Part shown: positions 44,201 through 55,018 of the stretch, in pieces
How positions within the stretch are numbered: position 1 is the first letter of the stretch
Layout of the letters: each line of letters starts with the position of its first letter
Source: Mesoterricola sediminis
GTDB lineage: Bacteria; Acidobacteriota; Holophagae; Holophagales; Holophagaceae
Assembly (NCBI RefSeq): GCF_030295425.1
Contig: NZ_AP027081.1
Coordinates: forward strand, 3,641,001 to 3,705,000
Direction of reading: 5' to 3'
DNA: 64,000 bases
Position numbers and translations under genes: made by a program
Notes under the pieces: model-generated
What the model was told of the DNA's origin: nothing
Seen by the model: only the letters and a program-made list of their open reading frames with translations
Database searches by the model: none

Positions 44201-45348
44201 ACAACCAGGCTCGACGGGACGGCGGTACATGGGGCGAATGCCCCTTCGGGTAACGCGATGATGCCATCTACGCGGTACTCATCGAGCAGCACCTTTCGAA
44301 CCAGCCGATCAGGACCCGTGCGAAAGAGTGTACCTTCGGGAAGAGCGATAACCGCGCGTCCTCCCGGCCGGAGGTTTGCCATCACATGCTGAAGGAAGAG
44401 ATTTTCTATGCCTCCTGATGGGACTGGATACTGGCGAGATCTGGCATCCAAAAGACGGCCGCCCCATGGCGGTGCCGCTAAAATGCAATCAAACCCCTCC
44501 ACTGCCCGGTTTCTTGGAAGCGGACGCTCAAGAGCGTCGCCGAGCTCGAGCCCGGGCTTGTCAATGCCCGCAAGGACCATACGGCACAACCCGATGACAA
44601 ACGGCGCAGCGTTGATCTCGACACCGAAGATGCCGTTGTTGCGCACGTCGTCCCAGCGCTGGAGACCTTGGGTAGCAATAGTCTTCCACAGTCGCCGCGA
44701 GGCTTCGACGAGCAGACCACCGACACCGAAGCATGGGTCGTAGACTCGATCACCAGGCTTCGGGTTGACGAGGTCAACCATGAGGCTAACTACGGAATTC
44801 GGGGTTGTATACTCACCACCAAATTTTCCCTGCCCCTCCATGACCTTCTCTAGCAGTTCGTCGAAGGCTGCCGCTGCAATATTCCGCCCATCGGCCCCGT
44901 CAAATGGCAATCCTGCCACCCATTCCACAAGGCCCGCGAATACCTCACGGTGCCGCGTATAGCACTCCAGCACGGGAGGGGCAGCTGCGGCAACATATCG
45001 GCCGATCGTGGCTTGATGGCCCGGGCCCACTTCGAGCAGGCCTGTGCTCAGCCGTGCCACAAGCCCCTGAGCATCACACCAGGAAACCTGCCTAAGCGTC
45101 TCAGGAAGTTGCGGCACGAATGGCGTGTCGTCGAACGCAGACACTGCCTCCATTTCCGCATCCATGAAAGCCGCCCAGCGAACCACGAGGAGGCCCGCCA
45201 GCGGCGACAGAAATTCGACAACGTTTGCAGCAGATGAAGACCGCCATCGGTCTGCCACAGCCCAAATGGCATCAGAAGCCTTCCGGGCATCGGTGCTGTG
45301 GGTGCCTCTTGTCATGGCTTGCGAGACCTCGAGGCCATCATAGTTCAC
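41218..45348 (-). CDS. Fusion: N6-methylase-like + HsdS-like + HEPN-type motif + Ig-like + STAND-like ATPase
   Basis: 1376 residues from GTG (an ATG at 45315 is an alternative). Residues about 160-400 are an HsdM-type N6-adenine methylase fold with motif I DPCFGVGG (204-211), but motif IV reads AAPPW (291-295) instead of NPPY/F, so catalysis is doubtful. About 510-680 is an HsdS-like target recognition domain (VVPLRQVADLALG, then HLSVRTLGNLPVPVLPI). RNRIVH at 738-743 matches the HEPN Rx4-6H motif. About 855-950 is a predicted immunoglobulin-like beta domain. About 970-1345 is an AAA/STAND NTPase: FGRAEVIERIRRQL, Walker A EGNRRTGKTS (1005-1014), Walker B VLLMLDEFDK (1122-1131). It overlaps hsdS by 11 bases upstream and the second ATPase gene by 4 bases downstream. 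I infer a DNA-sequence-recognising switch tied to the type I enzyme. Confidence 0.8.
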   Translation of the reverse strand: MNYDGLEVSQAMTRGTHSTDARKASDAIWAVADRWRSSSAANVVEFLSPLAGLLVVRWAAFMDAEMEAVSAFDDTPFVPQLPETLRQVSWCDAQGLVARLSTGLLEVGPGHQATIGRYVAAAAPPVLECYTRHREVFAGLVEWVAGLPFDGADGRNIAAAAFDELLEKVMEGQGKFGGEYTTPNSVVSLMVDLVNPKPGDRVYDPCFGVGGLLVEASRRLWKTIATQGLQRWDDVRNNGIFGVEINAAPFVIGLCRMVLAGIDKPGLELGDALERPLPRNRAVEGFDCILAAPPWGGRLLDARSRQYPVPSGGIENLFLQHVMANLRPGGRAVIALPEGTLFRTGPDRLVRKVLLDEYRVDGIIALPEGAFAPCTAVPSSLVVFRREAPRSNVRFVTVPGKAWRVNAGARFGDGDGYVAAGGQSRSGDGIDSSEGQPGSPTLSAPSHSLFRDLPMLIRHERIDSIGLAPGVDAWDVDVSALAARDYELLAKHTGADELRATLERIVATDPSIKVVPLRQVADLALGVTYDKSVTSTNPKEEGTLGLLRVGDFSDFGAKIPGMRLTREGAIRLKEKQLLRAGDVAVTLSGTVGKAAVISDAAGTVGSVPAKSVAVVRCNADVQASFLAALLRSPAYQSWMHGHARGVTIQHLSVRTLGNLPVPVLPIAIQDAVLRTLEPRGDALLLLLRFAAGGTSDPMAAWLERPGVVSLLSDKAQTTDVTHALSGAGHELQELRSLRNRIVHGKEIVLTDAVRHWLIAAAELAPILVGIDTVPEGAPRIAVLELAKSRLEIARRALGFDGDEELITRGSQSGSKHELGSHSRSRLLVIRLRSLMAALEHLLDAATAEMLGPAKLRLKAEPPEVVVGVPTEVRLELENASTFGLRAVRVFTDPDVGTGNASYVAEGSMMRVPLTIHAIDSSRALEIRVRWEAMRLDGMPVRGDETIEILVRSTRQAVLAGDLGPSPYIVGNPIDRDDMFFGRAEVIERIRRQLGSEANANVILLEGNRRTGKTSVLKQLMKKGALPGWIPVYCSFQNTEGDESKAGITTQSVYRLMARMLGWTLSDAGIRTWFPGGPKLEGDRPFKVEFRAALDHAFSGPHPFEIFEEYLSAALEAARPRRVLLMLDEFDKLQEGIDSGVTSPQVPENIRHLLQHHAGLSAVLTGSRRFKRLREEYWSALFGLGYRIGISALPPEDAQRLVIEPVVDRLSYLPAARDLLVDLCARQPFLVQSLCNRVFERAAKTKERIITLAAVNEAAAEMVRDNEHFRTLWGYAQTHRRRLLLVLCDRLADGPDPINLALFSAQLEALGVHVDLDSQIGDDLEYLRELELIEFDKAYRGGTYRIAVPLLGMWIRTSIDFDDAVARAREEAEESRA

Positions 45349-46561
45349 CCCTGAACGCCTTTCGAAGGACAGCCGGCTTCAGCCCATCGCAGCCATGGGA
45401 CCTCTCCATCTGTTCACTAGCTATCTGCCAGATGATTTCTCTCTGCCTTTGTAGGAGCTCAGCGACTTCTTCCTGTTTAGGCAAGGGCGGTAAGGGCAGC
45501 TTGATGCTCCGCAGGTTCTCGGAATTGATGTTGTACTGACCGGCAGATGTACGCCGTATCGCAGAGATTGCATCGCGCCCAAGGGTTGACATCAGAAAAA
45601 AGGCGACAAATCGAGGATCCGCCTTGCTCGCATCGACTCGCAATCTAATCAAGTACGAGGCGAAAGCCATCGTCACATCGCAAGGGAGGTCGTACACCGC
45701 GCATCGGCCCACAAGCTCTGGGCTTCCGTTAGTCCGCACAATCAAAATGTCACCCGATTTGAGGGCCAACCGAGCCTGCTCATTCTCTTCGAGAGCGCAG
45801 TATTTCAGGTCTGTTGTATTGACCCGTCCACCGGCCACATTTGGAATCCGGAGGACGGGGGTGGCATCCTCACTGGCATTACATTTTTTGCTCGTGCCAT
45901 ACCTGCTATCTGCGAGGACTGTTCCGAGGCCAGCCGTTTGATACGCCAGCGAAAGCTCATGGAACACTGAAGCCAACGATGATGGCAGAAGCGCGCGAGC
46001 CTCACGTTGTGCACAATAGTTCAAATCACACATTTCTTCGATTCGTCCGAGGCACTCAGACGTTCGTGCAAGAATGCGGCGCTGCTCGTCGATGGGTGGA
46101 ACCGGGATAAGAGCCGCCTCAAGGAATTCGGCTGGAACCCGCTGTTGGCCGGCCGAACCCTTGAAGTGCCTCCGCGCCTCCTCTAGGAATGATGGTTGGC
46201 GAATAAAGTGCCAGAGCCATTCTGGCAGTACCTTGTCCCCTGCACGCAGGACGTGGAACTCGGTAGACCCAAAGCCAATGCCGTTACGAAGGTTGCGGGC
46301 CACCGCCGATTTCCCGTTCTGCATACAGGGCGTAATTTTTGCAAAAATCACGTCCCCTTCGCAGAAGTGCGTGAACCCCTTACGCACATCACAATATGCG
46401 CGCATCTCAGGTCGAGATATGATTCCGGACGCTTCGTCCACCGCAGACATGGGGACGAACGTCACCTCTGTCTTGGCTTCGAGGTTTTTGAATCGCTTCC
46501 CTCGGCCAGGATTAACGTCTGCAATGTCTCGGATTGGCGCTACACGCCACCCTGGCTTCAT
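45338..46561 (-). CDS. hsdS: Type I restriction-modification specificity subunit
   Basis: 407 residues with two target recognition domains, each followed by a conserved helix: WRVAPIRDIADVNPG... to PVPPIDEQRRIL, and LGTVLADSRYGTSKKC... to LPLPPLPKQEEVAELL. HsdS directs the HsdM and HsdR subunits to a bipartite DNA site. The start overlaps the hsdM stop (ATGA) and the stop overlaps the start of the fusion gene. The second specificity-like module in the fusion protein means two recognition specificities could exist in this operon. Confidence 0.93.
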   Translation of the reverse strand: MKPGWRVAPIRDIADVNPGRGKRFKNLEAKTEVTFVPMSAVDEASGIISRPEMRAYCDVRKGFTHFCEGDVIFAKITPCMQNGKSAVARNLRNGIGFGSTEFHVLRAGDKVLPEWLWHFIRQPSFLEEARRHFKGSAGQQRVPAEFLEAALIPVPPIDEQRRILARTSECLGRIEEMCDLNYCAQREARALLPSSLASVFHELSLAYQTAGLGTVLADSRYGTSKKCNASEDATPVLRIPNVAGGRVNTTDLKYCALEENEQARLALKSGDILIVRTNGSPELVGRCAVYDLPCDVTMAFASYLIRLRVDASKADPRFVAFFLMSTLGRDAISAIRRTSAGQYNINSENLRSIKLPLPPLPKQEEVAELLQRQREIIWQIASEQMERSHGCDGLKPAVLRKAFRGEL

Positions 46562-48066
46562 ACCGTCTCCTCCAGGAGCGCCTCAAGTTCCTCGAGAAGA
46601 TCAAAGACCCGTTCCTCTCGGGCTCGGATGGACTGTACCAGTTCGAGTGCAGGTCGATGTTCGTCATCACTTTCACGGTGCGGGTTACGAGCAGAAAGGT
46701 CGTAGCCGCGTTTGACGATTTCGCTGGCCGAAACAACCCAAGAATTATCTGCCTTCGGCCTTGCATTGAATTGCTTCACGAACTCGGGCAATTGGTCCCC
46801 TTCGATCGGGCGACGCGTTTGCTTCAATTCAAAGCCATCGTTCTTAACCTCGTAGAACCACACATCATTGGTTCCCCTGCCGTCTTCCCGGCGGTTAAAG
46901 AAAATTACATTTGTCTTAACCCCGGTGTATGGCAAGAAGCAGCCAGCTGGCAAGGATAGGATAGTGTGAACATCGAATTCCGTTAGCAGACGTTCACGTA
47001 CTTTCGCGTCAGGCCCGCCACGGAAAAGCACACCCTCGGGAACAATCACCGCTGCTCGGCCACCCTTTTTAAGATTCGCCATAATGTGTTGTAGGAACAG
47101 GATCTCGGTGGCGCCAGAGTGGATCGTGAAATTTGTCTGCAGTTCGCGGGCCAGCTTTCCGCCATAGGGCGGATTGGAGAGGATGACGTCGTACTTGTTC
47201 TTTTCGGGAACATTGGCTGAGTGCAATTCCAACGTATTCGCCTGCTCGAGGTTTGCACCCTCGATACGGTGCAAAATCATGTTCATGATGCCAAGCAGGT
47301 AGGTAAGCGGCTTTAGCTCGACCCCAAAGAAGGTTTTCCGATTCAATGTATCGTTGTCTTTGCGGCTCAAGGTACCGGAGTTCGCCCGAATGAACTTGGC
47401 GGACTCTGAGAGAAAGCCGGCTGTTCCAAAGCATGGGTCGTAAATCCTGTCTCCAACTTTTGGCTCTACCACAGCTACCATTGCCCTGATGATGTGTCGC
47501 TGGGTATAGAACTCACCCGCATATCCGGCAGAGTCGCTGGCAACTCGCTTGAGAAGATCCTCGTATAGCTCCGATAGAACGATTACGTCGGTCTCATCCG
47601 AGAAGTGCAGCCGGTTCACCTGCTGAACAACCCGAGCGAAGCTGGCACCACGGCGAGAGTGATTGCGTACAGTCGAGAAGATGCGCCGGAATCGCTCTGC
47701 AATTGGGTCTTCGGTAAACTGCTTGGTTCCGGCCGTCGTGCCGAAGCTCTGGAGGTAGTGCCAGAGCTTCCCATCGACGAATTCGAGCATGGCGTCGGGC
47801 TTGTTGGTCCAGCTTGACCAGACAGACCATCGGAAGTCGCCATCGATACGGCGTGTGTATGCGTTGTCCTCGAAGGTCGCTTCTTTTTCATGGCGAGTTT
47901 CGGCTTCGTCAAATGCTTTGAGGAAAAATAGCCATGCAAGCTGTTCCACGTAGTCACGGGGCGTGACGCCATCGCTGTTGAGTTGGTCGCATGCGTTTTT
48001 GACAGCTTGCTGTACTTCCTGCCGTCGGTGCTCCGCCTGGCCATTGCCGTTGTTCAGGGTTGCCAT
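46558..48066 (-). CDS. hsdM: Type I restriction-modification N6-adenine methyltransferase subunit
   Basis: 502 residues. The N-terminal helical domain (AWLFFLKAFDEAE) is followed by the class gamma methyltransferase core: motif I DPCFGTAGF (210-218) and motif IV NPPYGG (298-303), both intact, plus VPEGVLFRGGPDAKVRERLL. It methylates adenine at the HsdS-defined site using S-adenosylmethionine, protecting host DNA. It starts 12 bases after hsdR and is coupled to hsdS by ATGA. Confidence 0.95.
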   Translation of the reverse strand: MATLNNGNGQAEHRRQEVQQAVKNACDQLNSDGVTPRDYVEQLAWLFFLKAFDEAETRHEKEATFEDNAYTRRIDGDFRWSVWSSWTNKPDAMLEFVDGKLWHYLQSFGTTAGTKQFTEDPIAERFRRIFSTVRNHSRRGASFARVVQQVNRLHFSDETDVIVLSELYEDLLKRVASDSAGYAGEFYTQRHIIRAMVAVVEPKVGDRIYDPCFGTAGFLSESAKFIRANSGTLSRKDNDTLNRKTFFGVELKPLTYLLGIMNMILHRIEGANLEQANTLELHSANVPEKNKYDVILSNPPYGGKLARELQTNFTIHSGATEILFLQHIMANLKKGGRAAVIVPEGVLFRGGPDAKVRERLLTEFDVHTILSLPAGCFLPYTGVKTNVIFFNRREDGRGTNDVWFYEVKNDGFELKQTRRPIEGDQLPEFVKQFNARPKADNSWVVSASEIVKRGYDLSARNPHRESDDEHRPALELVQSIRAREERVFDLLEELEALLEETV

Positions 48067-48078
48067 GAGTAATTCCTT

Positions 48079-50382
48079 TTAAGATGCCATTGGAATGTAT
48101 AAGTGCTGCTTCACTGCCTCAAGGTCATCCTTGAGTGCCACCGGACCACCGTAACGTTGAAGGAGGCTGCTGAAACTCCCGAACTGGTTCGTGAACTGTG
48201 GGGCGCTGTAGGTGGATCCCTGCTCCAGGTCGTCGATGCCGTAGAGCGCGTAGTGGTCGAGGCTCGTTTGCCAGAACGGTGCCTTGAAGCGCTTGTCAGC
48301 CGAAAGCGCCTGTTCCTTGAGCTGTGTGAGTAGCCATGCGTCGTCCTGGTCCCAGAAGCGCGTCACGCGGTCGTGGCGACTCGGCACGCGGACCAAGTCA
48401 AATCCCACCTTGGCTAGGATGTCGACATCGTCGGTAGCTTCGAGCCCGAAGAAATGCCTGAAAGCCGCCACATGGATATCGCGATCCTTGAGCTCCGCGC
48501 GCAAGTCGCGGCGTGTGGTCTTGTTAATCCAGATCTTGAGGAGATCAGAGATGCTCGCCGGCGCGATGCCGCGGATGACCTCCTTGGACTGTTCGCGATA
48601 TTCATCGAAGGGGATCTTCCTGCCGTCGGCAAGGCAGACATAGCGCTCCTCCCGTGCGATGAAGATATTAATGCCGTCGCCAATTGGCTTCTCGACAGGT
48701 CCGCCGGGCTTATTCTTCGATTTGGGCGAAAGCGCGGCCTTCTGGACGTTTGCCGGATGGCCGTCAAACTCGCTGTCCTCGAGCTGGGATGCTCCAACAT
48801 AGTCAAAAATGGTGAAGTAGCGCTTATCGATGTCGTCGCAGAGCCGCGTACCGCGGCCCTTCATCTGCTTGTAGAGGATGGAACTAAGCAGAGGTCGCGC
48901 GAAAATGATGTTCTTCACGTCGGGCGCATCGAAGCCCGTGGTGAGCAGGTCAACTGTTACCGCGACACGCGGCTTGGCGCGGCCGACTTCGGCGAAGTTA
49001 CGCTCGAGTTGGTGGGAGTTGCGCTCCGAACGGGTGATTCGAGCCGCGTAATCCGGATCGCCACTTAACCGACGCAACTCTGCGGCCATGAAGGCAGCAT
49101 GTGTGTCGTCAACGCAAAAGATGATGCTCTTCTCGTCGGTGAGCTGGTACTTGCCAAGCATCTGCCACAGGTCTTCGGCGATCAGTCGCGTCCTCTCCGG
49201 AAGCCGAATGTCCCGTTCGAAGTTCTTGGTTGTGTAGTGGCGACCATCAGGGCCAGTGTAGCCCTCGTCATCAACATTGCTGATTCGTTCCTCAAGCAGG
49301 TAAGGCACGAGGAAGCCGTCGTCGATCGCCTGTTTGAGGGAGTAGGTGTATGCGGGCTCACCGTCGGGACTGCCGGTGAAGTAATAGAACGTGTCCCGAC
49401 GGATTTCCTCATCGGTAAGTTCACGGCCGCTCTGGTCCAACTCGCGTGGCGTGGCCGTGAGGCCAAGCTGATAGGCGGTGCCGAAGTGTTCGAGGACCCC
49501 GAACCAGTCACCAAAGCCTGACCGGTGGCACTCGTCGACCACGACCAAGTCGAAGAAGTCCGGCTCGAAATGCTCGTAGATCTTCTTGCCCTGATACTCC
49601 TCGTCGAGGTTTTGGTAGTTCGCAAAGTAGATCTTGCCGACGGTGTGTTCGCCGCGAGCAACGGTGTCCTTGTCGACGACGACCCGCTCACGGGAGTCGA
49701 AGGCTGCGAACGCGCGGTATGCTTGGTCCTTGAGGCTATTGCGGTCCGTGAGGAAGAGAATACGGTTGTTCTTGAGGACGCTGCCGGCCAAGAGCTTCCA
49801 GGCCAACTGAAAGACAGTAAAGGTCTTTCCGGTGCCCGTCGCCATGAGCAGCAGCACGCGTTTCTCTCCCTGGGAGAAGCGGCACAGCGTCTCGAAGATG
49901 GCCATCTCCTGGTAGGGGCGGACTTTGCGTCTCGAGACTTGGTCCTCATACCAGGGTGCCTCGAAGACGGAACGCCACTCCTCCCAGACGATTTTCCTTC
50001 CAAGTAGACGGAGGACATCCCCCGGGCTCAGCGGCTTGTCGTGAGTCTCGTAGTTTCCAGTCTTGTTGTCAGTGACGATGTACTGACGGCCATTGCTGGA
50101 GATGGAGAAACGCAGGCCCAGGCGCATAGCGTAGCGAGCGCCCTGCTGAATCCCATCGGCAGCATCTTCACCCTCAGCCTTCGCCTCGAGAATGGCAAGG
50201 GGCATCTTCCAGAAACGCAGCACGTAGTCGGCAATGATTCGTTGCGAGTCGTCGTACATCGAATCACCGGTCAGGTTCACCCGACCAGGCCCGATCTCAA
50301 CCTGCGAATCCCAGCTCCAACCCGCCTTCTTGAGGGCGGGCTCGATGAGCTCTCGGCAGGTCTGTCTTTCGTTGCGACTCAT
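48079..50382 (-). CDS. hsdR: Type I restriction endonuclease motor/nuclease subunit
   Basis: 767 residues, EcoEI-like in size. The N-terminal nuclease has D52 in IADYVLRF and ExK at 66-68 in LAILEAKAEG. The SF2 translocase has Walker A ATGTGKT (181-187), DECH (283-286), LTATP, and the motif VI-like MKGRGTRLC. C-terminal residues form the HsdR_C-type domain that contacts HsdM. Its ATG lies 37 bases downstream of the sigma54 activator gene; a -24/-12-like promoter lies in that gap, so it is the first structural gene of the regulated operon. Confidence 0.94.
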   Translation of the reverse strand: MSRNERQTCRELIEPALKKAGWSWDSQVEIGPGRVNLTGDSMYDDSQRIIADYVLRFWKMPLAILEAKAEGEDAADGIQQGARYAMRLGLRFSISSNGRQYIVTDNKTGNYETHDKPLSPGDVLRLLGRKIVWEEWRSVFEAPWYEDQVSRRKVRPYQEMAIFETLCRFSQGEKRVLLLMATGTGKTFTVFQLAWKLLAGSVLKNNRILFLTDRNSLKDQAYRAFAAFDSRERVVVDKDTVARGEHTVGKIYFANYQNLDEEYQGKKIYEHFEPDFFDLVVVDECHRSGFGDWFGVLEHFGTAYQLGLTATPRELDQSGRELTDEEIRRDTFYYFTGSPDGEPAYTYSLKQAIDDGFLVPYLLEERISNVDDEGYTGPDGRHYTTKNFERDIRLPERTRLIAEDLWQMLGKYQLTDEKSIIFCVDDTHAAFMAAELRRLSGDPDYAARITRSERNSHQLERNFAEVGRAKPRVAVTVDLLTTGFDAPDVKNIIFARPLLSSILYKQMKGRGTRLCDDIDKRYFTIFDYVGASQLEDSEFDGHPANVQKAALSPKSKNKPGGPVEKPIGDGINIFIAREERYVCLADGRKIPFDEYREQSKEVIRGIAPASISDLLKIWINKTTRRDLRAELKDRDIHVAAFRHFFGLEATDDVDILAKVGFDLVRVPSRHDRVTRFWDQDDAWLLTQLKEQALSADKRFKAPFWQTSLDHYALYGIDDLEQGSTYSAPQFTNQFGSFSSLLQRYGGPVALKDDLEAVKQHLYIPMAS

Positions 50383-50403
50383 GGCTGCTCCGTCCGCTTC
50401 CTC

Positions 50404-50419
50404 ATCAAGGATCGTGCCA
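50404..50419 (-). promoter_or_regulatory. Sigma54 (-24/-12) promoter candidate for hsdRMS and the ATPase genes
   Basis: On the minus strand the bases read TGGCACGATCCTTGAT, against the RpoN consensus TGGCACG-N4-TTGC(A/T): the -24 element is exact, the spacing is right, and one base differs in the -12 element. It lies between the stop of an RtcR-like sigma54 activator gene and the hsdR start, 21 bases before the ATG. The activator's GAFTGA motif confirms it needs sigma54. Confidence 0.72.
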
Positions 50420-51925
50420 TTATAAAATTACTTCATAGCGAGCTAGCCAGTTGGTGAGTGTCTGATAGCTCGGCAGGCCTACCAACTCCGCGGCTTTGGT
50501 CTTATTGCCTGCTGCTTCATCCATCGCCCGGCCGAGGTAATGGCGGGCTACATCCTTGAGCAAATCCGGCAGATTCAGACCGCCACCTAAGGGCCGGCCA
50601 AGAACTCCTGTACGGGTTGCGGCGCTCGACGGGAGAAGGGCCTCCCTCATGTCCTCCGAACTGATGGTTGCTGAATCAGACCATATGACAGCACGACGAA
50701 GTGTGTTCGCCAATTCGCGAACGTTACCCGGCCAGGGATGTCCGAGCATAAGATTTCTTGCGCCTGCAGAAAGTTTTTTATTCTTGGCTCCGGGCTCGGA
50801 TGATGCCTCTCTGTTTACCTGCTCTAACAGAGTGTCAATGAGCAGGCTGATATCGCCAGTGCGCTCACGCAATGGCGGGATATTTAGAACCGCGACCGCT
50901 AATCTATAGAAGAGGTCTTCTCGAAACCGGCCAGCGCCAATCTCCTCGGTCAGCGTCTTATTGGTTGCCGCTATGACGCGCACATCGACCTTGGCCGGCT
51001 TGGTGGACCCGAGGCGAACGACCTCTCCCTCTTGGAGGACTCGAAGCAGCTTCACTTGCGCTGGTCCAGGCAACTCACCCAACTCGTCCAGGAACAAGGT
51101 GCCGCCATTGGCCGCTTCGAAGTATCCCTTGTGAGCCTGGGTAGCCCCAGTAAATGCGCCCTTCTCATGGCCGAACAACTCGGATTCCAATAGTTCACCG
51201 GGAATCGCGCCGCAGTTAACGGCAACAAACCGATTATCTCGGCGTGGGCTTGCACGGTGGATTGCCCGTGCGAGCATTTCCTTGCCGGTACCAGATTCAC
51301 CTTCGATGAGGACTGGCACGGTCCTGATGGCGACGCGACGCGCACGCTGGATAAGCCGGTCCATAACCCGACTCCGATGAACGATATCAGCGAACTCTGG
51401 AGCAGCTGGAGGCTCCACGGTGCTGAGCAAGCGCAAGCGCTCGTCCTGCTCCCGGAGAAGATCCGGAAGGAAGTCTGCCGAGATATCAAAAGGAACTGAG
51501 GCCGTCTGCACCCCCCTCTCGCGCGAGGACTCGATCAACTCGGCTGGGAATCGCGTCTTGGCGAGGATTATCCACACGGCAGCCATCGCAGGGGTGCCAG
51601 GACTGAGATGGTAGGTGAGCGACGTTGTGGTCCGCTGGTTGCCGAGCGCCTTGGCGCAGGCTTTGGCGGCAGCCTCATAGATTTCGCCGAAATTGGTGGG
51701 ACCCGATAGTTTCACGGTGAAGGTATCGATGCTTGTCGAGGTGCGCTGCTTGATCCACTCGACGAACGCCTTCACCTCCTCCTCGGGATAGTCGCTGACT
51801 AGGACGACCTTATCGAAGGCCCGGGCATCTAGCGCCTGCGCGATCGGCCCCACCCCGACCTTATCAGTCTCGGATGGGGCGCGAAGGTCGGTTTTGCCGA
51901 TCCAACTGACGAGAGCCCTTGTCAT
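50420..51925 (-). CDS. RtcR-like sigma54-dependent activator with N-terminal CARF-type sensor domain
   Basis: 501 residues from the ATG giving [10 protein letters not shown] (12 more in-frame codons lie upstream). Residues 1-150 form a Rossmann-like domain resembling the RtcR CARF domain: [30 protein letters not shown] and the ligand-loop-like [19 protein letters not shown] complete bacterial enhancer-binding AAA+ domain follows: Walker A GESGTGKE (208-215), the sigma54-contacting loop GAFTGA (256-261) and Walker B TLFLDE (276-281). A Fis-type HTH ends the protein ([11 protein letters not shown]). RtcR senses RNA ends to induce RNA repair; CARF domains bind cyclic oligonucleotides or related ligands. 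Here it sits directly before a type I restriction operon with a sigma54 promoter between them. Confidence 0.88.
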
Positions 51926-52253
51926 AGCTATATGCATACAAGAATTTTTACTTAAACACAAAACAATTTATACATAATGTTCTCTTCCAGGTTCTGTTCG
52001 CCTAAACCCTGAGCTTGGCATTCGCGAGAATGGATCGCAGGCGGAAACCAATTGTTTCTCCAGGCCTTATGGTTTCGCTTTGCAACCACACTTGACAAAC
52101 AAACCGAACCAACCAAATTTTTTCCAGTCCAGGTTGTGCTCCTTGCCCTTCCTGGTGATTCCAATCGATCCACATTCGCCATCGGGATCCTTCGGGTGGC
52201 GGTGATTGACTTTATTCAGAGCCCTTTGATCAACATTTCGACTAGAGAACCAC
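51926..52253. other. Gene-free stretch upstream of the sigma54 activator
   Basis: About 330 bases, locally AT-rich next to the activator gene (51945-51980). It should carry the divergent promoters of the activator (-) and the HTH gene (+). No certain promoter or operator is seen. A minus-strand frame ending near 52067 (containing NLDWKKFGWFGLFVKCGC) overlaps the HTH gene and is not a convincing gene. Confidence 0.4.
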
Positions 52254-52466
52254 ATGGCCTCGACAACGCCCGCCTTTACCCTGCTGGATACCGAGGCAGC
52301 TGCATCACTCCTCGGAGTATCACGCCATACCCTGGAGGACTGGCGTTGGAAGCGCCTCGGCCCGCCATGGATCCGCATCAGCCGGAGCTGCGTCCGTTAC
52401 GACCTGGATGCCCTGCGAAGGTGGCTGAGCGAGCACACCGTCGAGGAGATCACAGTCGCCTCCTAA
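52254..52466 (+). CDS. AlpA/excisionase-type helix-turn-helix protein
   Basis: 70 residues, a single winged HTH of the MerR_17/AlpA/Xis type: LLDTEAAASLLGVSRHTLED, then WRWKRLGPPWIRISRSCVRY and DLDALRRWLSEH. Such small proteins act as recombination directionality factors or regulators of integrases in genomic islands. It lies about 210 bases from the tRNA-Ser 3' end, at the opposite edge of the island from the integrase remnant, supporting the view that the region is an integrated element. Confidence 0.8.
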   Translation: MASTTPAFTLLDTEAAASLLGVSRHTLEDWRWKRLGPPWIRISRSCVRYDLDALRRWLSEHTVEEITVAS

Positions 52467-52607
52467 GGTGTAACCCATAGCGCTGCGATTGCCGCCTGGT
52501 GATGGCCGGCCTAAGCGTTCAGGCCTGAATGACTAGCGCGGCGTGCCGTTGTGCGCCATCATCGGCTGCCCATCCATCCCGACCCGCCCCCGCAAGGGGC
52601 ATTGGTT

Positions 52608-52635
52608 TGTCTGCCGCGTGGTAGACGGGTGGTAG
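52608..52635. repeat. Short direct repeats near the tRNA-Ser 3' end
   Basis: GTGGTAG occurs twice within about 20 bases (GCGTGGTAGACGGGTGGTAG), between the HTH gene and the tRNA-Ser terminator. Closely spaced direct repeats next to a tRNA 3' end can be arm-type or excisionase binding sites of an integrated element. The evidence is position and repetition only. Confidence 0.3.
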
Positions 52636-52650
52636 ATTGCCCAAAACGAA

Positions 52651-52670
52651 GCCCCCTCGGTTGAGGGGGC
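52651..52670 (-). terminator. Terminator of tRNA-Ser
   Basis: An 8-bp perfect stem (GCCCCCTC/GAGGGGGC, loop of 4), followed on the minus strand by TTCGTTTT. It begins 5 bases after the encoded CCA of tRNA-Ser and may also act on plus-strand transcripts. Confidence 0.82.
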
Positions 52671-52675
52671 TAAGT

Positions 52676-52766
52676 TGGCGGAGAGTGGGGGATTCGAACC
52701 CCCGATACGCTTTTGACGTATACACGATTTCCAGTCGTGCTCCTTCAACCACTCGGACAACTCTCC
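52676..52766 (-). tRNA. tRNA-Ser (anticodon GGA)
   Basis: 91 bases including the encoded CCA. The acceptor stem GGAGAGT pairs with ACTCTCC, the discriminator is G, the anticodon stem-loop is CACGACTGGAAATCGTG with anticodon GGA, the variable arm is long as in class II tRNAs, and the T loop is GGTTCGAATCC. It reads Ser codons UCC/UCU. Its 3' end faces the island, the usual orientation for an attachment site, but I found no second copy of the 3' end at the left border. Confidence 0.97.
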
Positions 52767-54052: not shown

Positions 54053-54076
54053 TTCCCGCCGGAGTTCCTGTAGAAT
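54049..54076 (+). promoter_or_regulatory. Promoter candidate for tRNA-Asn
   Basis: TTGATT (54049-54054) and TAGAAT (54071-54076) separated by 16 bases resemble sigma70 -35 and -10 boxes; the tRNA starts 15 bases after the -10. The -35 overlaps the end of mglA. Confidence 0.5.
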
Positions 54077-54090
54077 AGTCCTTCTACGTT

Positions 54091-54165
54091 TCCGGCGTAG
54101 CTCAGTGGTAGAGCAATCGGCTGTTAACCGATGGGTCGGGGGTTCAAATCCCTCCGCCGGAGCCA
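54091..54165 (+). tRNA. tRNA-Asn (anticodon GTT)
   Basis: 75 bases with encoded CCA. The acceptor TCCGGCG pairs with CGCCGGA, discriminator G, the anticodon arm is ATCGGCTGTTAACCGAT with anticodon GTT, and the T loop is GGTTCAAATCC. The 3' half of the gene and its terminator are repeated downstream at 54318-54403. Confidence 0.97.
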
Positions 54166-54403
54166 GATCGACAGGCCCCCGTCAGGGGGCCTTTCCTTTT
54201 GGCGGAGGGATTTGAATCGTCCCTGGCGCGCCGGTAGCCCAAGGCGGCCACGCATGCGTGGCCGACGGTCCGCCGAAGGCGGATGGGCGGGCGCAGCCAG
54301 GGCCGCGGCGCACAGCGAAATCCCTCCGCCGGAGCCAGATCGATAGGCCCCCGTCAGGGGGCCTTCCTTTTTGGCGGAGGGAGCTGAATCGTCCCTGGCG
54401 CGC
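54146..54403. repeat. Duplicated tRNA-Asn 3' end plus terminator (att-like direct repeats)
   Basis: Bases 54146-54231 (tRNA T-arm end, acceptor strand, CCA, terminator and flank to GTCCCTGGCGCGC) recur at 54318-54403 with few differences. Between them are about 86 bases of GC-rich hairpins, including the palindrome GGCCACGCATGCGTGGCC. Inside each copy, GGCGGAGGGA(TTTGA) is the inverse of the T-arm/acceptor sequence TCAAATCCCTCCGCC. A duplicated tRNA 3' end is the usual footprint of integrase-mediated insertion, here with nearly all cargo lost. Confidence 0.8.
54174..54200 (+). terminator. Terminator of tRNA-Asn
   Basis: Perfect 7-bp stem GGCCCCC/GGGGGCC with loop GTCA, followed by TTTCCTTTT. 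The same hairpin recurs in the downstream duplicate at about 54347-54372. Confidence 0.88.
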
Positions 54404-54409
54404 AGGCGG

Positions 54410-55018
54410 TCAAACGAGGGCTGGCGCGTCCTGGCTGGCGGCGGCGTGGCAGGCGAGGACGGTCTCGCGCAGGGTGGCGTAGGTGGCGGGGGTGCCCAGA
54501 CGCTCGACCCGGGAGAGGCTGATGGAGCGCTGGTCCAGTTCCTGGAGGACGGGCCGGGGGATCACCCAGAAGGCCCACTGGCCGAGGTCCAGGGGCCGCA
54601 GGTCGCCGGGATGGGTCGCGGTCTGGAGCGCGAAGACGTAGACGTCGGCCCGGAACTGGCGGCGGCCCTCGTAGGCGGCGCCGTCCCCGGTGACCGCCTG
54701 GCCCTTGAGCCCGGAGAAGACCACGGCGGAGCCCCGGCTGTCCCAGGACTGGACGCGTCCGCTGGCCTTGACTTCGACCTTGATGCCGTCGGGCGTCAGG
54801 AGATCGAAGTCGGCCCAGGGGTTGCGGGGCACGTCCATGGGACAGCCCAGGGCGGCTCCGACGAGGTACTCGGCCAGGATGCCCCGGATGGTGTTGTCGG
54901 CGAAGTTGGAGAAGGCCCACTGCCAGAAGCCGCCGACGGAGGCCTGGGACGGGGCGCCGTCGCCGCCGTGGAAGCCGTCGGCGGGGTCATGGGGGCGGGA
55001 TGGGAGGTAACGGGCCAT
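54410..55018 (-). CDS. Uncharacterised protein with PD-(D/E)xK-like core
   Basis: 202 residues. The segment ADFDLLTPDGIKVEVKASGR has the spacing of a PD-(D/E)xK nuclease active site (D, then E-x-K), preceded by a helix with a conserved-looking glutamate (GILAEYLVGAALG). This fold occurs in restriction enzymes, Holliday resolvases and inactive DNA-binding proteins. No partner is adjacent, though it directly follows the tRNA-Asn duplication, a typical place for defence cargo. Function unknown; nuclease activity is only suggested. Confidence 0.6.
   Translation of the reverse strand: MARYLPSRPHDPADGFHGGDGAPSQASVGGFWQWAFSNFADNTIRGILAEYLVGAALGCPMDVPRNPWADFDLLTPDGIKVEVKASGRVQSWDSRGSAVVFSGLKGQAVTGDGAAYEGRRQFRADVYVFALQTATHPGDLRPLDLGQWAFWVIPRPVLQELDQRSISLSRVERLGTPATYATLRETVLACHAAASQDAPALV

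Follow-up and report, generated by a model that had tools for sequence, protein, structure and literature searches.

What kind of element leaves the 3' end of a tRNA gene, together with its terminator, standing twice behind that gene? The question is raised by the tRNA-Asn locus of Mesoterricola sediminis, a member of the Holophagaceae (Acidobacteriota), which lies in a 64,000-nucleotide stretch of the genome that was analysed as a whole and is called the window here. An earlier note on this DNA had taken the two copies for the attL/attR pair of an integrated element that had suffered a nearly complete deletion. We find that the duplication is real. Rather than the att remains of a lost island, it is a variant form, hitherto undescribed, of the tRNA-linked repeats (TLRs) known from E. 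coli.

The first description of TLRs dates from 1978. A paper of 2021 still gives them no known function before proposing one for three that are linked to rRNA (PMC8144298). It counts 22 units at ten E. coli loci, each unit with a 3' end of 18-19 bp that repeats the tRNA or rRNA gene upstream of it (PMC8144298). In the literature searched, which was mostly open-access, we found no report of TLRs beyond E. coli (PMC8144298 and PMC9245011, both in part).

Results

Layout of the unit behind tRNA-Asn

A single unit adjoins the tRNA-Asn gene of the window (Table 1). The repeat, given previously as 86 bp, recurs at the claimed spacing of 172 but is longer: positions 54146-54247 return at 54318-54419, over 102 nt, ungapped and with 88% identity, leaving 70 bp between the copies (86 bp between the 86-bp copies). 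As had been proposed, the repeats begin in the T arm, more precisely in the T loop, and the 20 nt from position 57 to the CCA are copied exactly; the 3' end of the unit is the 3' end of the upstream gene. Chance can be excluded as the source of this duplication because of the length of the repeat and the outcome of the model-free tRNA survey given below. The description of the enclosed DNA as hairpin-rich and part of a tRNA-linked element also holds. Folded as RNA, a 330-nt stretch gives z = -6.87 against shuffles, with 0/100 shuffles as good, and the interval between the copies is crossed only by overlapping ORFs of 71 and 74 aa on the + strand. Two features had been overlooked, namely an inverted copy (A') of the tRNA 3' end that is exact over 16 nt, and the identity of the DNA between the copies, which is a core common to other tRNA loci.

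Table 1. Features of the tRNA-Asn locus (window coordinates)
Feature	Position	Strand	Basis
tRNA-Asn(gtt), host gene	54091-54165	+	ARAGORN; Rfam RF00005, 73.2 bits
A, the tRNA 3' end that is copied (20 nt, from T-loop position 57 to CCA)	54146-54165	+	
T1, terminator-like hairpin GGCCCCC-GTCA-GGGGGCC and T-rich tract	54174-54200	+	By eye; within the folded stretch
A', inverted copy of the tRNA 3' end	54201-54216	+	Complementary 16/16 to 54143-54158
Core (91 nt): outer stem, GTAG..AAG junction, two inner hairpins	54218-54308	+	R1, covariation
Minihairpin CCGCC-GAA-GGCGG, C-GNA-G loop	54270-54282	+	By eye; loop class counted
A copy, direct copy of the tRNA 3' end, 20/20	54318-54337	+	Repeat comparison
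T2, copy of the terminator region	54338-54372	+	Repeat comparison
Remnants of a second A' (16 nt, 88% complementary) and of a second core (its first ~14 nt)	54373-54403	+	

The window core scores 80.9 bits (E 1.3e-13 over the loci read) against R1, a covariance model of the core alone built from 22 sequences, the window core among them. An RNA family known to Rfam was rejected, with only the tRNA reaching its gathering score in the window and searches by E-value threshold giving the same outcome. The PD-(D/E)xK-like gene said to follow directly does adjoin the unit, but no Pfam match at E <= 0.001 accompanies that family label. The stop codon of this gene (54410-55018, -) lies a few bases beyond the truncated second core, from which we take the element to extend to the end of the gene.

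Elsewhere in the window, the 3' side of tRNA-Ser(gga) (52676-52766, -) carries genes that by eye resemble Type I restriction-modification, together with a gene for a sigma-54 activator and a small excisionase-like one (HTH_17); this region, 45338-52766, is perhaps an island at that tRNA.

One core behind many tRNAs

The cassettes of the family share one order, running from the tRNA 3' end through a terminator, A', a hairpin core of ~92 nt and A, after which the terminator often recurs. The core is common across tRNA loci, while A, A' and the terminator belong to each local tRNA. The DNA enclosed by the repeats is the element itself, with the same core behind many other tRNAs of the family; the proposed remainder of a deleted insertion is not supported.

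The genome of M. sediminis (G000) holds three such loci, with one unit at tRNA-Asn, one at tRNA-Ser(gct) and three at tRNA-Pro(cgg), numbers that lie within the one to five units per locus of TLRs. The tRNA-Pro units follow one another at 196-bp steps and have identical cores, and the Asn and Pro cores share 81% over 93 nt. A model-free scan for copied tRNA ends, from which tRNAs with <90 bp free downstream were dropped, found the layout at 3/40 tRNAs of this genome and 3/30 of the sister genome G004, and at 0/26 and 0/24 tRNAs of G013 and G042; 30 loci each had been fetched from G004, G013 and G042 (44, 46 and 54 tRNAs listed), plus L141 (G004). A fourth locus in G004, at tRNA-Asn, shows a clear inverted copy and no clear direct copy. 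Two other arrangements occur in the M. sediminis genome. Behind tRNA-Thr(tgt) (L076, G000:C1:752331-752402), 30 nt of the tRNA 3' end recur in direct orientation ~105 nt downstream, past a hairpin-rich spacer and with no inverted partner, a different kind of tRNA-end duplication; behind tRNA-Arg(cct) (L070, G000:C1:3573627-3573699), an inverted partial tRNA copy begins ~51 nt downstream and runs towards the anticodon arm, with no core seen.

R1, whose alignment leaves out 2/24 cores (the second Ser core of G015 and the Cys core of G017), matches 37/77 genomes of the family and 21/396 genomes drawn from the phylum, all 21 of them in the family. A search with a core pattern returned 12 named stretches, of which eight are from Geothrix or Holophagaceae, one from Holophagaceae UBA1801, one from an 'Acidobacteria bacterium' and two from Plantactinospora. 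The Plantactinospora matches (L228, L232) have no tRNA within 8 kb and were taken as chance, the stretch of L228 that was inspected showing no tRNA end. The pattern CGGCCCGNAGGGNNATCC occurs in 18/396 phylum genomes; a scan with this one pattern covered 18/20 of its loci (L243 and L244, known family loci, were omitted) and met a nearby tRNA only at L258, of the same family, so that its matches outside the family look like chance.

Altogether 79 loci were inspected, 19 from the first searches, from which loci with other cores such as L041 and L050 were omitted, and 60 regions chosen among the R1 matches in the family, those left aside being mostly weaker than about E 1e-7 and a few stronger. 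They contain 106 cores, of which 50 start 23-78 nt past the end of a tRNA on the same strand; another 17 stand further along in such arrays, 21 are at contig edges and 18 are without a called tRNA. For these last, the 3' part of a tRNA is present upstream in some (L135, L169, L190) and none in L154, L158 and L173. Runs of N or contig ends fall within or beside arrays (L134, L038, L049, L162 and many draft contig ends), hence copy numbers in draft genomes may be underestimates. The 'tRNA-Gly' calls of ARAGORN on the reverse strand of L041 and L020 were set aside as artefacts of the inverted T arm.

Inheritance and movement among relatives

The same short duplication in all relatives would, according to the earlier note, have pointed to an old tandem duplication. 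Instead, tRNA-Asn is followed in different relatives by an empty site, by other cores or by arrays. In a comparison by eye of 19 loci, the window's own included, the tRNA and its terminator stand alone in G002, G007, G008, G011, G012, G013, G018, G019, G021, G030 and G035; G001 and G004 have a different core, G009 and G010 carry arrays, G026 shows a single type-1 core, and G014 and G036 retain short remnants. Larger insertions between tRNA and copy, which had been suggested as a check, were not seen: in the loci read in sequence, where copies beyond about 130-700 bp from the tRNA would have escaped notice, none is gene-sized and only small palindromic ones occur. In L039 (the tRNA-Asn array of G009), a GC-rich palindrome is inserted within a copy of the tRNA end, and in L037 (tRNA-Ser(tga) of G015) another within hairpin 1 of the core; these inserts are palindromic elements nested in units.

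For 51 tRNA-labelled loci, with isoacceptors treated as different tRNAs, the nearest core belongs to a different tRNA in 33 cases (27 across genomes, six within the same genome) and to the same tRNA of another genome in 18. The latter, in which the same core is kept at the same tRNA in relatives, are best read as inheritance, and the two groups together indicate that cores are both inherited and moved between tRNAs. Array units are identical in some cases (Pro in G000, Gln in G004) and diverged in others (Asn in G009). The collection holds one genome per species, and thus no near-identical filled and empty strain pairs of Holophagaceae, and no insertion event was caught in it.

The core bears a DNA-type signature

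Pairing in the core was assessed in 100 distinct cores fitted to the model (alignment A3), where 96.0% of the cells are paired and 589 carry double changes, values reached by 0/500 shuffles; sliding the alignment by 1-3 columns lowers pairing to 32.5-41.5%. The pair counts of A3 lean towards the model to which it was fitted, and an alignment based on sequence only (A2) agrees with it, with double changes in 20/31 pairs. Among the 3013 cells of A3, 2836 are Watson-Crick, 56 are G-T (1.9%) and 34 are A-C (1.1%). As a yardstick, 93 distinct tRNAs were taken from the family and from a few relatives in the class and phylum; their acceptor and T stems contain 77/1116 G-T (6.9%) and 1/1116 A-C (0.1%); the 42 tRNAs of the M. 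sediminis genome itself give 35/504 and 1/504. The balance of mismatches differs between core and tRNA stems with a Fisher p of 4e-10, which is only a guide as the rows are related. G-T is scarce, at a level close to that of A-C, so that the core avoids G-U and handles the two mismatches almost equally, as DNA would.

The loop of hairpin 2 is C-GNA-G in 70/93 distinct cores with a callable hairpin (GAA 32, GCA 23, GGA 10, GTA 5). An additional C-GNA-G minihairpin is present in 34/99 distinct right flanks, taken as 46 nt from the end of the core, where shuffles give a mean of 2.4 and a maximum of 9 and other loop classes are found 0-6 times. These loops are located on the tRNA-sense strand. Minihairpins with GNA loops and at least two G-C pairs are described, in the part of the source used here, as extraordinarily stable DNA structures (PMC4686876). 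The new observations here are covariation in the core that consists almost entirely of Watson-Crick changes, and C-GNA-G loops like those of E. coli TLRs; the pattern suggests that the core works as folded single-stranded DNA.

Copies of the tRNA end match the host gene

When each copy was compared with swapped tRNAs, A' fitted its own tRNA above the 95th percentile of the swaps in 46/50 first units and A did so in 36/50, with 14/50 not above. Host-matched ends with inverted copies occur at tRNAs for Asn, Pro, Ser, Gln, Glu, Cys, Gly, Val, Asp, Leu, Met and SeC. In the 36 first units in which both copies are clear, the inner edges of A and A', counted from the tRNA 3' end, fall at (20,23) in 21, (27,30) in seven, (18,21) in two and elsewhere in six. 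The edges are thus offset by 3 nt in 30/36 units, and the two main classes lie 7 nt apart. Where the edge of A' is at 23, its three additional bases are TTC, a conserved part of the T loop, and part of the offset may therefore be constant element sequence. Fixed edges and a 3-nt offset may speak for a specific enzyme instead of template switching. A' continues into the acceptor strand in 38/50 first units, whereas the inverted copy at E. coli lysV, and at the Met loci, is the T arm only.

Comparison with E. coli

The closest anatomical counterpart is found in E. coli K-12. At lysV and lysQ, the order is tRNA, terminator, GATTCGAACCTGC, hairpins, an exact 18-nt copy and the terminator again, and at tyrV an inverted T-arm copy at +59 accompanies an exact 19-nt direct copy. 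A direct copy is likewise present at lysT, lysW, lysY, lysZ, argQ, argZ and the rrnB 5S gene, where the inverted copy before the core is weak or absent. The layout is absent from the K-12 stretches inspected at the glyV, metT and leuQ operons, thrU-tyrU-glyT-thrT and argY. Across 13 E. coli stretches, argY included, there are 21 C-GNA-G minihairpins (shuffles: mean 0.5, maximum 3), which are not independent as the three tyrV units are near-identical; argY, which is no TLR since its tRNA end is not copied, is the sole stretch of the 13 without one. The lysV locus carries no unit in strain LR-50, where exactly 156 bp are missing, one in K-12 and two in LAM_HS, and the 0-unit allele could be a deletion instead of the ancestral state. 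Among the matches listed for tyrT (60 rows), up to four annotated RtT units are found and some match the tRNA only. RefSeq labels the lysV units (L239 and other E. coli records) as 'rtT sRNA, processed from tyrT transcript', despite their location at tRNA-Lys.

Units of both bacteria stand directly behind a tRNA (in E. coli also a 5S rRNA) gene, singly or as several in tandem, and end in a copy of the end of the upstream gene, as does the 178-bp tyrT/RtT repeat. They also share the inverted T arm before the core (tyrV, lysV, lysQ), the duplicated terminator (lysV, lysQ) and the C-GNA-G minihairpins. They differ in core sequence, in the length of the copy, which is mostly 20 or 27 nt in Holophagaceae against 18-19 bp, and in A', which in Holophagaceae usually includes acceptor sequence. 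Although CGGCCCGAAGGG precedes the copy at some loci of both, no sequence model matches between them: the Rfam RtT model (RF00391) detected its E. coli control and found 0/60 relatives, and gave no match at E<=10 in window 54060-54480. Besides common descent, convergence on stable hairpins is a possible source of the likeness. The window feature is firmly a tRNA-linked repeat in the anatomical sense.

Discussion

The present work establishes the cassette layout, the common core, the tRNA-specific A and A' and differences in copy number by whole units. Several explanations can be set against these observations. The units could be read-through sRNAs whose core is kept for an RNA function, as reported for RrA, RrB and RrF behind E. 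coli rRNA operons (PMC8144298). The strong covariation of the core and the polarity of its loops fit such a reading, C-GNA-G loops on the sense strand being equally what a sense RNA would have, and E. coli TLRs are annotated as RtT sRNA; according to the sections of the source used here, the three rRNA-linked ones are transcribed, interact with Hfq and bind CsrA in vitro (PMC8144298). However, G-U pairs are far scarcer than in tRNA stems and nearly as rare as A-C, the loops are of a DNA triloop class, a terminator-like hairpin stands before the core in the loci inspected, and loci are patchy among relatives, down to the 0-2 units at lysV, which leaves a structured small RNA a rather unlikely explanation. 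We judge it somewhat less probable still that the repeats are of att type, either as attL/attR left behind by a deletion or as a minimal element that a tyrosine recombinase moves by acting on the T arm. The units do share with tRNA-integrating islands direct repeats that start in the T arm and continue into the terminator, and the discrete inner edges, with their 3-nt offset and two main classes, would suit a recombinase. Against this, the ends match the host alike across the tRNA kinds listed above, where a single attP would be expected to leave chimeric tRNAs; the cassette between the window copies holds neither integrase nor cargo and includes an inverted copy, which sets it apart from such islands, and E. 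coli K-12 has the same layout.

A REP/RAYT-type non-autonomous element, moved by a Y1 (HUH) transposase, was also considered and has become improbable. The GTAG at the foot of the inner hairpins recalls the GTAG-tagged REPs (PMC3733652); its TAG is nearly invariant in A2 and sits at an inner junction, not at the element end. The cassettes are, like them, short palindromic DNA repeats, their structure looks single-stranded, and Y1 transposase genes (PF01797), present in 13/77 family genomes, occur in 10/37 core-bearing genomes vs 3/40 others (p 0.03). Yet PF01797 is unmatched in 27/37 core-bearing genomes (some of them drafts), which include the core-rich G009, G017, G023 and G028 and the M. 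sediminis genome with its 0 matches, and a Y1 transposase was on this count rejected as a necessary mover, although it is commoner there than elsewhere. The cassettes, moreover, are bound to tRNA ends and copy them; we know of no REPs that do so. If the tRNA 3' end and its terminator had simply been duplicated long ago, two tandem copies would be accounted for, and the identical tRNA-Pro units do look like tandem duplication, but the inverted copy, the common core behind other tRNAs and the patchy distribution would stay unexplained; this reading was rejected because several tRNA loci have the core in common, and we consider it highly improbable. A further likeness is to integron attC sites and folded single-stranded attP, which have an imperfect stem and are thought to act as a folded single strand. 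They share with the core the imperfect stem, unpaired bases and variable terminal hairpins, whereas the cassette is linked to tRNA genes, lacks a cassette gene and has no attC boxes noticeable by eye.

We favour, with a probability of roughly 0.48 for the reading as a whole, that the window holds a unit of the TLR class that would be active as folded sense-strand single-stranded DNA, spread by template switching and persist as a passenger. The mechanism of spread that we infer would begin with the sense strand folding when exposed as single-stranded DNA behind RNA polymerase or on the lagging strand. Its hairpin foot of T-arm sequence could then let DNA synthesis switch between the core and the T arm of the host tRNA. 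Foldback at the terminator hairpin would write A', the T-arm sequence would bridge to the core, which would be copied, and the strand would return to the T arm and write A and the terminator a second time. Later, the direct repeats could recombine or slip against each other, adding or removing whole units. If foldback takes place, A' should run through the acceptor strand, as it does in the 38/50 units noted above but not at E. coli lysV or at the Met loci; inverted copies limited to the T arm do not require foldback. From the counts of Y1 genes, a dedicated enzyme for movement of the cassette is not evident, and we take the TLR cassette to be a selfish or neutral passenger, not a host gene. 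TLRs are thus perhaps single-stranded DNA hairpin elements that copy the end of the host tRNA by template switching. The wider proposition, that they form a cross-phylum class of folded single-stranded DNA whose ends are rewritten from each host tRNA, so that one core can colonise any tRNA in the absence of a dedicated transposase, is more doubtful and is offered tentatively.

The occurrence of TLR anatomy in Acidobacteriota provides a comparative handle on these repeats: the core can be aligned across 100 distinct sequences and shows a DNA-type structural signature, the inner edges are precise and linked, and E. coli lysV with its 0, 1 or 2 units is a natural locus for testing gain and loss. 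Draft contigs often end at arrays of this type. If the favoured reading is true, there would also be a warning for annotation, as TLR units may underlie RtT 'sRNA' calls as well as att-like repeats downstream of tRNA genes, and the Holophagaceae cassettes would represent an additional way for DNA to spread, with ends taken from the target.
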